64,000 nt of DNA, from NCBI RefSeq assembly GCF_003627955.1, contig NZ_RBWS01000005.1:62001-126000 (forward strand). Direction: 5' to 3'. The DNA is from Sphingobacterium puteale. GTDB lineage: Bacteria; Bacteroidota; Bacteroidia; Sphingobacteriales; Sphingobacteriaceae. Shown here piece after piece: positions 12,977-53,204 of the stretch; position 1 is the first letter of the stretch, and every line of letters starts with the position of its first letter. The notes under the pieces were generated by a model, which had not been told where the DNA came from, searched no databases, and saw only the letters and a list, made by a program, of their open reading frames with translations. Position numbers and translations under genes: made by a program.

Positions 12977-14836
12977 ATGAACCCATTTTTAGAACTGGGA
13001 ATCCGTGAGGAAGTTGTTAATGCCATCTCAGAATTAGGTTTCGAAAAACCTTCTGAAATTCAGGAAAAAGCCATTCCTGTTTTATTGACTGGTAACGACG
13101 ATTTTGTCGGATTAGCCCAAACTGGCACAGGAAAGACCGCGGCATTTGGTCTTCCATTATTAGAGCAATTAGACTTTTCTCAAAAACACCCACAGGCATT
13201 AATCCTTTGCCCTACTCGGGAATTATGTTTACAAATCTCAAAAGATTTAGAAAAATTTGCTAAATACGTTGACAACGTACATGTTGTTGCTGTATATGGA
13301 GGTGCAAATATCTCAGACCAGCTACGTCAAATCAGACGTGGAGTGCAAATTGTAGTAGCGACCCCTGGTCGTATGTTGGATATCATTGGCAGGAATGCAA
13401 TTGATTTTTCAAAAGTAAAATATGTTGTATTAGATGAAGCGGATGAGATGCTCAATATGGGCTTCAAAGAAGACATCAACAGCATTTTGTCAGAAACTCC
13501 TGACGAGAAAAAAACTTGGTTATTTTCGGCGACAATGCCTTCCGAGGTACGTCGTATTGCAAAAAATTATATGACCGATCCTGTTGAGCTTACTGTAGGT
13601 ACAAAAAATACCGGTAATGCCAACATCGAACACCATTATTATTTGATCAAAGCAAAAGATAAATATGCTGCGTTCAAACGTATTGTGGATTCAAACCCTG
13701 ATATCTTTGGTATCGTATTCTGTCGTACAAAAATCGAGACACAGGACATCGCCGAAGCGTTGATCAAAGATGGTTACAATGCAGACTCGTTGCACGGTGA
13801 CTTGTCCCAACAACAACGCGACAAAGTAATGAAACGTTACCGTGACCGTAGTTTACAACTATTGATCGCAACAGACGTAGCTGCTCGTGGTATTGATGTA
13901 AGTGATGTAACTCACGTGATCAATTTCTCTTTACCGGATGAAACAGAAAACTATACGCACCGTTCTGGTCGTACTGCCCGTGCAGGTAAAACTGGTATCT
14001 CGCTTTCATTGGTCAATGTAAAAGAGCTCAGCAAAATCCGTCATCTTGAAAAGATCATCGGTAAACCTTTTGAGAAAAAACAAGTTCCTCAAGGTGCTGA
14101 AGTATGCGAAAAACAATTGTTCTCTATCGTTAAGAAGATTGAAAACGTTGAAGTAAATGATGAGCAAATCAGTCCTTTCTTGCCTGCAATTATGGAAAAT
14201 CTGGAATCTCTTTCAAAAGAAGATATCATCAAAAGATTTGCATCCCTTGAATTCAACCGTTTCTTGGATTATTATAAAAACGCTCCGGATCTAAATATCG
14301 AAGCCCGCGAAGGTTCTCGTGAAGATCGTGGCGACAGACGTGATGGTCGTTCTCGTGAAGGTTCAAAAGGTTATACCCGTTTGTTCATGAACTTAGGTTC
14401 AGTAGATGAATTCTCCCGTGGAGACATGTTAGGTTTTATCTGCAACAACGCGAACATCTCCGGAAAATCTATCGGTAAAATTGACTTAAAAGGTGTATTT
14501 ACATTCTTTGAAGTTCAAGATGCTGAAGTAGAGAAAGTATTCCAAGGATTCCAAGGTGTGGATTACAACGGTCGTCAAGTACGTATCGAAGTATCTGGAG
14601 AAGCAAAAAGCGAAGGCCGTGGAAGAAGCCGTGGTGGTGACCGTGGCGGAAGACGCGAAGGCGGATATCGTGGTGGTGATCGCGGTGGAAGACGTGAAGG
14701 TGGATACGGAGGCGGTGACCGTGGCGGAAGACGTGAAGGCGGATTCAGCGGCGAAAGACGTGACCGTGGCAGCAGCAATGGCGGAGGTTTCCGTGATTTC
14801 TCAGGTAAACGTAAAGAATCTAAAAGCAAATACTAG
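12977..14836 (+). CDS. DEAD-box ATP-dependent RNA helicase with RGG-rich tail
   Basis: 619 residues. The helicase core carries the Q motif (FEKPSEIQEKAI), AQTGTGKT (motif I), PTRELC, TPGRM, DEAD (about 157-160), SAT and, in the second RecA domain, HRSGRTARAG. A DbpA-type RNA-binding domain follows (about 470-545, YTRLFMNLGSVDEF). The C-terminal Gly/Arg tail contains three 13-residue repeats. This layout matches DeaD/CsdA-type helicases that remodel structured RNA and help ribosome assembly in the cold. The gene has its own promoter and terminator and is divergent from the sigma gene. Confidence 0.95.
   Translation: MNPFLELGIREEVVNAISELGFEKPSEIQEKAIPVLLTGNDDFVGLAQTGTGKTAAFGLPLLEQLDFSQKHPQALILCPTRELCLQISKDLEKFAKYVDNVHVVAVYGGANISDQLRQIRRGVQIVVATPGRMLDIIGRNAIDFSKVKYVVLDEADEMLNMGFKEDINSILSETPDEKKTWLFSATMPSEVRRIAKNYMTDPVELTVGTKNTGNANIEHHYYLIKAKDKYAAFKRIVDSNPDIFGIVFCRTKIETQDIAEALIKDGYNADSLHGDLSQQQRDKVMKRYRDRSLQLLIATDVAARGIDVSDVTHVINFSLPDETENYTHRSGRTARAGKTGISLSLVNVKELSKIRHLEKIIGKPFEKKQVPQGAEVCEKQLFSIVKKIENVEVNDEQISPFLPAIMENLESLSKEDIIKRFASLEFNRFLDYYKNAPDLNIEAREGSREDRGDRRDGRSREGSKGYTRLFMNLGSVDEFSRGDMLGFICNNANISGKSIGKIDLKGVFTFFEVQDAEVEKVFQGFQGVDYNGRQVRIEVSGEAKSEGRGRSRGGDRGGRREGGYRGGDRGGRREGGYGGGDRGGRREGGFSGERRDRGSSNGGGFRDFSGKRKESKSKY
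14636..14752 (+). repeat. Three 39-bp tandem repeats encoding an RGG tail
   Basis: Three consecutive in-frame units of 39 bp (14636-14674, 14675-14713, 14714-14752) each encode GDRGGRREGG plus three variable residues. They lie within the C-terminal RNA-binding tail of the helicase. Copy number could vary between strains by slippage. Confidence 0.9.
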
Positions 14837-43491: not shown

Positions 43492-43842
43492 AATAACTTC
43501 GGTTAAGTAAATCTACAATTGGTTCTAAAAGTTAGATCGAATATAATTTAGAAAAACAAACAAAACAAATATTTACAAAATCAAAATTGAAACATAATAA
43601 AGTTATTTTAATAAAATATGAAAGCATTAGAAATATATAACATAAGCTATCACAGGTAATAAGACCTTCGATTAGAACGCTGCAAAACTAACAACAAGCC
43701 CACACAAACCGTCATTCAGCTAGTTATTAAATCATTAAGATTGTTTTAATTTAATGCTAAGAGTGTATTTTGAACAGAAAGAAAATTAACAAATCAAATA
43801 AAACAAAAATGTTACAAAAAACAACAAAATGAAACCTTCATA

Positions 43843-43870
43843 TTGTAACATCTTGTTAGCAATAATTTTG
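43843..43870 (+). promoter_or_regulatory. Candidate promoter facing the array region
   Basis: TTG (43843-43845), a 17-bp spacer and TAATTTTG (43863-43870) resemble a promoter with a short spacer. A TGTTAC/GTAACA inverted repeat (43810-43815 and 43845-43850) spans the upstream part. No gene starts within 700 bp downstream. Confidence 0.4.
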
Positions 43871-43950
43871 CACAGGAAAACAGATTTAAAAAACAAACAA
43901 AGAAAATAGTGCTGTATTTGGGATACAACCAACTAGTTATTTTCCTTTAG

Positions 43951-44064
43951 TAATTACCTGCCGTAATACCGTATTTCAGGTATAGTTTTCCTACTGTTGG
44001 CCTACATTTGGTTTACTGGGATAGGAGAATAGTAGGCCAACAGTAGGTCAGTGGTACGTCAGTG
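43951..44064. repeat. Divergent 11-bp-phased GTAGG array A
   Basis: On the minus strand, 11-mers starting at 44016, 44005, 43994, 43983, 43972 and 43961 read GTAAACCAAAT, GTAGGCCAACA, GTAGGAAAACT and then weaker units. On the plus strand units at 44021, 44032, 44043 and 44054 read ATAGGAGAATA, GTAGGCCAACA, GTAGGTCAGTG and GTACGTCAGTG. The phase is exactly 11 bp in both directions. Identical GTAGGCCAACA units produce a 15-bp perfect inverted repeat (43991-44005 and 44032-44046). Confidence 0.75.
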
Positions 44065-44192
44065 TGCAAATAAGATCAGGAAAAATAGCAACGAACATAG
44101 GAAGTTAGTGCGATTAGCATTATCTAAAATTGTTCATCCTATTTTCGGAACTCATTCGGGAATGCTTCGCCCCTTCTTCGCCGATCACCTTA

Positions 44193-44265
44193 CTTTTCTC
44201 CACTCAACACCTACTCTTTCCCTACTGATTATGTAGGCAATATGTAGAGAATGAGTAGAGAATCT
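44193..44265. repeat. Divergent 11-bp-phased GTAGG array B
   Basis: Minus-strand units at 44225, 44214 and 44203 read GTAGGGAAAGA, GTAGGTGTTGA and GTGGAGAAAAG. Plus-strand units at 44233, 44244 and 44255 read GTAGGCAATAT, GTAGAGAATGA and GTAGAGAATCT. The two halves point away from each other across 7 bp. Weaker 11-bp periodicity (CGAAG-type units) continues on both sides. Confidence 0.75.
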
Positions 44266-44379
44266 ATATGGGCATTCCGAAGACGGTACGGACAAAAGGC
44301 GAAGAAATACTGTACAAATACCGAAGCAAACACCAAAAAATAGTGCTTAAAAGCCCAATTTTTTGGTATCCCACTTCCC

Positions 44380-44387
44380 TAACTTTG
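44380..44387 (+). promoter_or_regulatory. Candidate promoter -7 box for the transglutaminase-like gene
   Basis: TAACTTTG matches TAnnTTTG. It would give a leader of about 210 nt before the TTG start at 44607. No -33 element at ideal spacing is seen. Confidence 0.4.
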
Positions 44388-44606
44388 ATTTGATAACATT
44401 CCAAAAATCAGGAAAATGAAAAGGCATATAGCTTCATACAACCATTGTTCAGGGCGAGCATACTCGATTTATGAGCAGTACATGGTATGTATTATTTAAA
44501 GGTTTCCAACCATTGCAATCCCAAAAACATTTTTCAATAATCGCTATAAAAAGCAACTATAATTTGTTAAATTTATATTACACTAATGTTATTAAATTGT
44601 TAAGAA

Positions 44607-51797: not shown

Positions 51798-53204
51798 ATG
51801 AACACGATACAGTTGGTTTGGAAAAATTTAAGTAGACAATTCGGTTCTGTCTTTTTGAGCATTTTACTGACAGCTTTTGGAATCTCCATACTGGCTGTAC
51901 TCTCGATTACAGGTGAAACATTCGAAAAGCAGCTCGACAACAACAGTAAGAACATTGACCTGGTCGTCGGAGCCAAAGGTAGTCCTCTTCAATTGATCCT
52001 ATCCAGCGTATATCATATTGACAACCCAACGGGAAATATACCTTTGAACGAACTCGAGCCACTGCGTCAGAACCCGCTTGTACAATTAGCGGTTCCCTTG
52101 TCATTGGGTGATAACTTTAAGGGACATCGAATTGTCGGTACGGACTCTTCTTTTCTAGCCATCTATGGTACCAAAATAAATAACGGCCGCATCTGGAAAA
52201 AAAACTTTGAGGTCGTTATCGGTGAACAGGTAGCTAAAAAAAACAACTTGAAAATAGGTGACCAGATCAACAGCTCACATGGACTGAGCAAGGATGGCCA
52301 TAGTCATGACGAACATCCTTTTACTATTGTGGGTATTCTAAAGCAAAACAACAACGTAACTGACAACCTCATATTGACCAACCTCGAAAGCGTCTGGGAT
52401 GTTCATGGTATCGCCCATGATCATGCCGATCACGAAACAGCAGCTCAAAAAGAAAAACGTGAACGGGAAGAAGACCGCGAAGAAACGGTTAAAGCACACC
52501 TGCACCACCATGGCGAGGATTTGCCGGAAAATTCTACTGCTCAAGTAGCAACCAATGAAAAGGAGCATCATGATCATGACCATGAAGGACATGCTGATCA
52601 TGAACACGAAGAGGAAGGTGTATTTGTTAAATCCATCGGCGCGGATATGGTGAAACAGAATGGTCTTGAAATAACGGCTATTTTAATAAAATACCAGTCA
52701 CCGGCAGCCATCGGTATATTGCCCAAAATGATCGACCAACAAACTGATATGCAAGCGGCTTCTCCGGCAATGGAAAGTACGCGTCTGTTTTCACTCCTAG
52801 GTGCAGGAATAGATTCTTTGGCTATCCTTGCTTATGTCATCATGCTCATTGCTGGCCTGAGTGTATTTATTAACCTCTACAATGCGTTGAAACAACGTAA
52901 GTATGATCTGGCCATTATGCGTACACTCGGTGCGTCTAAAGGAAAGTTATTCAACATTGTTCTGTTGGAAGGTCTGATCATAACGATCGTTGGTGGACTG
53001 GTGGGACTTTTATTCGCACATCTGGCTTTATACTATATCAGTAACCAAACGAGCCAGAGCGCTGACTTTATCGAAGCTTTTAGGCTACATCCAAAAGAAT
53101 TGGTATTTTTGCTTGTTGCTTGCCTCATCGGCGTGCTCGCAGCGCTGATTCCCGCTGTGAAAGCGTACAGGACAAGTATCGCTGGTACTTTATCAAACAA
53201 ATAG
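51798..53204 (+). CDS. FtsX-like ABC permease with histidine-rich extracytoplasmic loop
   Basis: 468 residues. TM1 is at about 20-42, then a large periplasmic MacB-PCD-like domain (about 45-310), then three TM helices (about 335-360, 385-410, 430-455), as in MacB/LolC permeases. The periplasmic domain contains two His clusters, GHSHDEH (about 168) and a longer stretch (about 205-275) with HLHHHGED and EHHDHDHEGHADHEHEEE. Such loops bind Zn2+ or other metals. The stop codon lies inside a 15-bp tandem duplication. I infer metal-linked transport or metal-dependent lipoprotein handling. Confidence 0.9.
   Translation: MNTIQLVWKNLSRQFGSVFLSILLTAFGISILAVLSITGETFEKQLDNNSKNIDLVVGAKGSPLQLILSSVYHIDNPTGNIPLNELEPLRQNPLVQLAVPLSLGDNFKGHRIVGTDSSFLAIYGTKINNGRIWKKNFEVVIGEQVAKKNNLKIGDQINSSHGLSKDGHSHDEHPFTIVGILKQNNNVTDNLILTNLESVWDVHGIAHDHADHETAAQKEKREREEDREETVKAHLHHHGEDLPENSTAQVATNEKEHHDHDHEGHADHEHEEEGVFVKSIGADMVKQNGLEITAILIKYQSPAAIGILPKMIDQQTDMQAASPAMESTRLFSLLGAGIDSLAILAYVIMLIAGLSVFINLYNALKQRKYDLAIMRTLGASKGKLFNIVLLEGLIITIVGGLVGLLFAHLALYYISNQTSQSADFIEAFRLHPKELVFLLVACLIGVLAALIPAVKAYRTSIAGTLSNK

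Follow-up and report, generated by a model that had tools for sequence, protein, structure and literature searches.

Relaxed B-DNA completes one turn in about 10.5 bp. In the parC centromere of plasmid R1, which is plasmid-borne and adjoins parM/parR, the ParR iterons come in sets of 11-bp units, and these are unmirrored. As for the Bacteroidota, the organisation of the nucleoid has, to our knowledge, been little studied. Winged-helix proteins of the BldC/RdfS/Xis type form head-to-tail filaments in which a protomer takes up about one turn of DNA (PMC11963761, PMC5859096). The gyrase motif of E. coli is symmetric, spans about 130 bp and has a composition phased at 10.75 bp in both arms (PMC6379681). 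In bent DNA, the pyrimidine-purine (YpR) step has been described as a flexible hinge (PMC12393610). REP/BIME palindromes, which go with RAYT transposases, are dispersed intergenic palindromic repeats (PMC3733652). Genome-wide 11-bp signals are reported to fit negatively supercoiled or wrapped DNA (PMC4132750).

The window, that is, the whole 64-kb stretch of DNA that was analysed, holds two arrays of short words repeated at 11-bp steps. These arrays are real, they are larger than first noted, and they form one copy of a scattered element class. The class is apparently undescribed: no element of such kind was found among the families tested or in the open-access literature, and an account published in a subscription journal may have escaped this scope. 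The parts of the window copy and its surroundings are as follows.

43843 to 43870, plus strand: promoter-like match TTG-N17-TAATTTTG, a putative promoter that reads towards the element
43943 to 44330, unstranded: whole element, about 390 bp (388-bp), intergenic, two mirrored 11-bp-phased arrays with a conserved stretch between them (homology span in G022; lag-11 z 7.7)
43954 to 44019, minus strand: left half of array 1, CTAC/CCGTA-type words, TpA or CpG every 11 bp (YpR phase)
44018 to 44019, unstranded: dyad of array 1, TA-to-TA distance 8 bp, a centre that recurs in related copies
44020 to 44063, plus strand: right half of array 1, GTAGG words every 11 bp (autocorrelation, YpR phase)
44064 to 44140, unstranded: inter-array stretch, CAGGAAAAATAGCAA...AGGAAGTTAGTGCGAT, conserved both in the orthologs and in the copies found at further loci
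44141 to 44184, minus strand: left outer arm of array 2, four TTCG units (autocorrelation, YpR phase)
44185 to 44228, minus strand: left inner arm of array 2, CTTAC/CCAC/CTAC/CTAC units (autocorrelation, YpR phase)
44229 to 44229, unstranded: dyad of array 2, crossed by an unbroken 11-bp phase (TA-to-TA distance 11 bp)
44229 to 44272, plus strand: right inner arm of array 2, GTAGG/GTAGA units (autocorrelation, YpR phase)
44273 to 44330, plus strand: right outer arm of array 2, CGAA/ACGG units (YpR phase)
44416 to 44499, plus strand: short ORF MKRHIASYNHCSGRAY..., matching MKKxxxxYSHCxVRACS ORFs beside orthologous elements

The sequence-only reading had proposed two centres at about 44018 and 44229 in a gene-free region, with a change of strand at each. 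All of this holds: each centre has CTAC words on its left and GTAG words on its right, and the gap without a gene-sized ORF, which contains the element, runs from 43492 to 44606. As for the extent, the CGAA units on the right of array 2 had been recognised, but the TTCG left outer arm that mirrors them (44141-44184) had been missed, and the element occupies 43943-44330. When this sequence is set in rows of 11, its words fall in register. In array 2, the units follow each other as four TTCG, CTTAC/CCAC/CTAC/CTAC, the dyad, three GTAG plus TATA, and then CCGAA, ACGG, GCGAA ... CCGAA. The promoter-like match upstream follows the general promoter consensus, a pattern that occurs 17 times on the two strands of the 64-kb window.

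The excess at 11 bp is evident against shuffled sequence. Autocorrelation of 43951-44330 at lag 11 is 0.43 vs 0.26 in dinucleotide shuffles, and with 1000 such shuffles z reaches 7.7 at lag 11, 7.3 at lag 22 and 4.3 at lag 33 (7.0, 6.7 and 3.5 for 43951-44265). Lag 10 of the element shows no elevation over the shuffles and lies below their mean. The sole TRF match here has 2 copies (44043-44064), and because TRF reports nothing longer the units are, as had been supposed, too degenerate for a recent tandem repeat. A tandem minisatellite or slippage array was accordingly rejected, the unit identity being too low for TRF beyond 2 copies. Tandem repeats of another kind, 39-bp and 27-bp and high-scoring, occur at 14629-14763 of the window in an apparently coding glycine/arginine-rich segment. 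Further along, at 51798-53204, a permease-like ORF adjoins an ABC ATPase-like ORF and has a long His/Asp/Glu-rich loop, HDHDHEGHADHEHEE, whose composition suggests metal binding.

What do units with such different words have in common? Whatever the word, a YpR step (CG, TA, CA or TG) returns every 11 bp. In array 2 (44141-44330), it stands at a fixed phase in 16 of 17 turns, a best-phase fraction of 0.94 vs a shuffled maximum of 0.39 (P<0.0005, dinucleotide-keeping shuffles). In array 1, the step is found in 7/7 turns of 43943-44019 (P=0.0015), and the right half has a best-phase fraction of 1.0 with a marginal P of 0.04, because this stretch is short. The dyad of array 1 is an 8-bp phase change, and each half is therefore in phase with itself only; the same 8-bp centre is present in the related copies L010, L011, L012 and L019, and as 8+11 in L005. 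The left words are pyrimidine-rich before the YpR step and the right words are purine-rich after it, so that the halves mirror each other. The constant feature of the element is its helical phase, not its sequence. The sequence-only reading had placed protein contacts on one face of the DNA, and the 11-bp phase supports contacts of this kind.

It had also allowed for an unrecognised element, which a dispersed class without a match among the families tested now supports. The supposition that no other array exists in this or related genomes clearly fails, given that arrays are dispersed in the genus and in other Bacteroidota. G009, G016 and G005 have orthologs of the window copy near the same SusC operon. 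In G022, identity is 90% over exactly 43943-44330 and both flanks differ. Partial copies (about 72%) occur at other loci, e.g., G000:C48 (the window's own genome) and G016:C4. Four TTCG at 11-bp steps are found in 42/61 congener genomes, with few matches to the reversed-pattern control. About a third of the sampled congeners have no TTCG arrays; therefore, any function is dispensable or served by other words. In the complete genome G061, a three-unit search returned 59+49 matches vs 1+0 for the reversed control. With one genome per species, the mirrored pattern occurs in Sphingobacterium, Olivibacter, Parapedobacter, Pedobacter, Breznakibacter and several Bacteroidales. The matches inspected in other phyla (cyanobacterium L072, Paenibacillus L120, Verrucomicrobia L134 and others) were discarded, being simple TTCGAA or similar tandem repeats.

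Within the window's own genome, the inner words are CTAC, ACAG/CCAG, CGGACTC or TTCG, and outer TTCG/CGAA arms are present in most arrays. Many arrays are ~200-240 bp long, with 20 or more turns. Some copies have companions. Short ORFs of the MKKxxxxYSHCxVRACS type, 37 to 93 aa, stand beside orthologous elements in the window (44416-44499, altered), L002, L003, L004 and L006. Proteins of 214 aa (MGTIxxGxNGGFxGKxGxVIGxSWKSI) have their start 300-400 bp away from a CTAC array in each of two species (L252:3389-4033 and L026:6113-6757), and a possibly related family lies near arrays in 14 loci. In a Bacteroidaceae MAG (L077:4889-5218), further 11-bp-phased words, TCATG/CATGA, are found outside the TTCG array, and CAAG/CTTG words surround the arrays in L112, L113 and L126.

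The phase is locked between the two sides. At loci gathered with a one-sided pattern, and thus not selected for mirroring, a mirrored right run within 150 bp lies at exactly 0 mod 11 for 62 of 74 left runs, and at +/-1 for nine more; chance would give 0 mod 11 in about one in eleven. The best evidence that the phase, not the sequence, is the conserved property comes from a single site that no pattern had selected for its change of words. There, at G000:C11:233 kb, the window's genome has a TTCG array, while G016, G021 and G062 have another one built of ACCAACTCC / TGAGTCC words. In these three the top lag is again 11 (z 5.4, 6.3 and 7.0), and the YpR step is phased in the two that were tested (P 0.001 and 0.02). 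G024 has about 20 bp only at this site. A second site, G000:C12:25 kb, carries the element between convergent genes in seven species, and in G005, G017, G021, G026 and G063 the same convergent genes are separated by 35-45 bp instead of about 500.

Sub-family 3, from the G000:C12:25 kb site (eight members, 71% mean column identity), has internal indels of 22, 11 and 11 bp only, and the window family has one 11-bp indel and two 1-bp indels. Slippage between units would also yield 11-bp indels; therefore, these support, and do not prove, selection on phase. Substitutions differ between the arrays: among the window orthologs, core positions of array 2 have changed less often (12/204) than its spacers (34/254), and in array 1 the core is not more conserved (26/116 core vs 29/147 spacers).

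These data bear on whether the arrays are a selfish or neutral repeat, grown by slippage and strand-switching, spread by some mobilising activity and of no use to the host. The 11-bp indels are what slippage predicts, presence is patchy, sites are occupied in one species and empty in another, and the copies of G061 are homogeneous. Yet the words change while the phase is kept, even at one site across species, the window's genome and most carriers have no RAYT-type transposases, and the mirrored pattern is without a match in a viral contig collection, on which ground a phage origin was discarded. Spacing points the same way: the 31 copies along the 3.9 Mb of G061 have a mean gap of 130 kb with a CV of 0.44 vs 0.95 for random placement, and no gap is below 41 kb (P<5e-5), a deficit that could also come from recombination between copies close to each other. 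All considered, a selfish or neutral repeat is very unlikely. Over-dispersion along the chromosome was not significant in G029, G017 and G026. By eye, and with dnaA located, neither an ori/ter nor a strand bias of the arrays was seen in G061 and G029. Beyond dnaA, G017:C1 has seven DnaA-domain-like matches in two groups of identical score (bits 29.7 x3, 22.0 x4), which we take to be probably transposon-encoded ATPases.

Another question is whether the arrays serve the genes next to them. The sequence-only reading had suggested a local regulator of the SusC/SusD or transglutaminase-like gene, in which case the element would be an operator array of a transcription regulator. The window copy does lie between two divergently transcribed genes. 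In several Sphingobacterium species, SusC and thioredoxin-like genes are also preceded by conserved leaders of 1-1.7 kb that contain a separate group of ~20-unit arrays, so that arrays may have a role at some SusC loci. Predicted HTH proteins lie upstream of some leaders. As a general role, however, local regulation is unsupported. The G061 copies are intergenic and adjoin genes in all orientations, and in roughly half of the cases the neighbouring gene turns its 5' end to the array (counted by eye); the arrays of the window's own genome adjoin unrelated genes too; and in G005, G009 and G016 the element has a different gene on its other side. We consider an operator array for the adjacent genes distinctly unlikely.

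The leaders themselves deserve a few words. In L131:6095-7802, L170, L156, L133 and L136, a conserved leader of 1.3-1.7 kb with a 20-unit array comes first, next a signal-peptide segment that stays constant, SLSAQTPRKDSGADGLS, and last a thioredoxin-like gene that differs, an arrangement that looks like a cassette or shuffling. Upstream of the thioredoxin-type leaders is a 124-aa protein, IYDVHKVDYDPIKEIEAFWNHY (L131:7151-7525, with homologs in L135, L156 and L170), and its L131 copy has no Pfam match. Long ORFs across arrays look like read-through of leader regions, and the array as coding sequence was discarded.

Might the element act as RNA instead, as a transcribed hairpin or other structured RNA? 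Eleven nucleotides are one turn of A-form RNA, the plus-strand fold energy of the whole region has a z of -6.5, a promoter-like match is directed into the element, and some Bacteroidales copies are near-perfect inverted repeats. Moreover, complementarity of the arm spacers is higher inside one array (0.50) than across arrays (0.36). Most of this complementarity, however, is retained when the partners are offset by whole units (0.37-0.47), and permuting units within the arms leaves the window arrays as stable (z 0.04 and -0.5; mean z -0.67 over 45 arrays). Covariation is about nil: in alignments of 8 and 5 sequences, both sides had changed in 4/29 pairs of sub-family 3 and in 1/102 of the window family. 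Rfam gave sub-threshold chance matches only. Despite the fold z, the hairpin is unsupported after unit permutation and covariation, and a structured RNA is highly improbable.

The REP/RAYT elements, which the arrays recall by their dispersed, intergenic and palindromic nature and by a GTAG tetranucleotide, are excluded. REPs are stem-loops of 20-40 bp tagged by one terminal GTAG/CGTC, whereas the elements here are phased arrays of ~200-390 bp; the 388-bp window copy has many units, and its arrays show no partner-specific pairing. A RAYT (Y1_Tnp, PF01797) is likewise absent from the window's genome, from G006, G078 and most carriers, and 13/61 congeners have one. As an RNA is unsupported, REP/RAYT is excluded and viral copies were not found, recognition of double-stranded DNA is the most likely.

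The proposal to which we give about an even chance is that the elements are double-stranded DNA sites with an architectural role, where a putative mirror-symmetric protein assembly contacts or wraps the DNA once per turn. One face of the helix would show a flexible YpR step with short purine/pyrimidine-asymmetric flanks every 11 bp, mirrored about the dyad. Putative protomers, one per helical turn, may sit there in two oppositely facing runs, or the DNA may wrap a two-fold symmetric core; either arrangement would bend or wrap about 200 bp. The architectural role is suggested because the copies are dispersed and indifferent to neighbouring genes: they may be architectural or topological chromosome sites (nucleoid organisation, supercoil anchoring, gyrase-type action), not operators of one neighbour gene. 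A fuller version can be put forward only tentatively, as a possibility short of a probable one: Bacteroidota chromosomes would carry architectural elements with a conserved YpR hinge phase in mirrored halves and exchangeable words, read by a putative two-fold symmetric filament or wrap and marking domains, ~every 130 kb in one species. If true, selection keeps the rhythm of DNA shape rather than the sequence. The arrays are also ready bait for finding the protein, given their exact phase and mirrored halves, with the natural empty sites of sister species as controls.

A specific form of such an assembly is gyrase. The elements could be strong gyrase (or topoisomerase IV) sites, in which the mirrored arms would wrap the enzyme's two C-terminal domains in the manner of the strong gyrase site of Mu. 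The E. coli sites and the arrays share symmetric arms phased once per turn, flexible DNA and a dispersed intergenic placement (BIME-2 in E. coli); phased anisotropic bending is a feature proposed for the Mu site (with YpR steps as hinges, PMC12393610), and the orientation-free placement of the arrays fits as well. The E. coli sites, however, have 130 bp, a composition phased at 10.75 bp, a non-periodic centre of ~36 bp and no fixed words (PMC6379681). Many arrays reach about 200 bp or more, often >=20 turns, with a period of 11.0 that crosses the dyad unbroken and with conserved, discrete mirrored words, a more specific feature than a phased composition. Moreover, gyrase should be universal, whereas TTCG arrays are missing from a third of the congeners. 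We regard the gyrase sites as unlikely.

Returning to a protein assembly on double-stranded DNA, how does the locus compare with the other systems? The exact 11.0-bp step, longer than the relaxed turn, fits negatively supercoiled or wrapped DNA. The ~11-bp periodicity of bacterial genomes is a weak global composition bias (PMC4132750, PMC3940949), and the element here is local, discrete and mirrored. The parC of plasmid R1 has 11-bp repeat units too; here, in contrast, these are mirrored and present in many chromosomal copies between unrelated genes, and a reading of the window's ORF list showed no obvious par genes near the element. With the sites of BldC, lambda Xis, P2 Cox and RdfS (PMC5859096, PMC11963761), the likeness lies in direct repeats, head-to-tail protomers ~one per turn, variable length and distortion of the DNA. 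Within each half of our arrays, direct repeats do recur about once per turn in variable number. Those sites, as described, hold few protomers (2-4) and are unmirrored, whereas the halves here mirror each other and the protein is putative; two mirrored once-per-turn runs would fit two opposed filaments of the BldC, Xis, Cox and RdfS kind.
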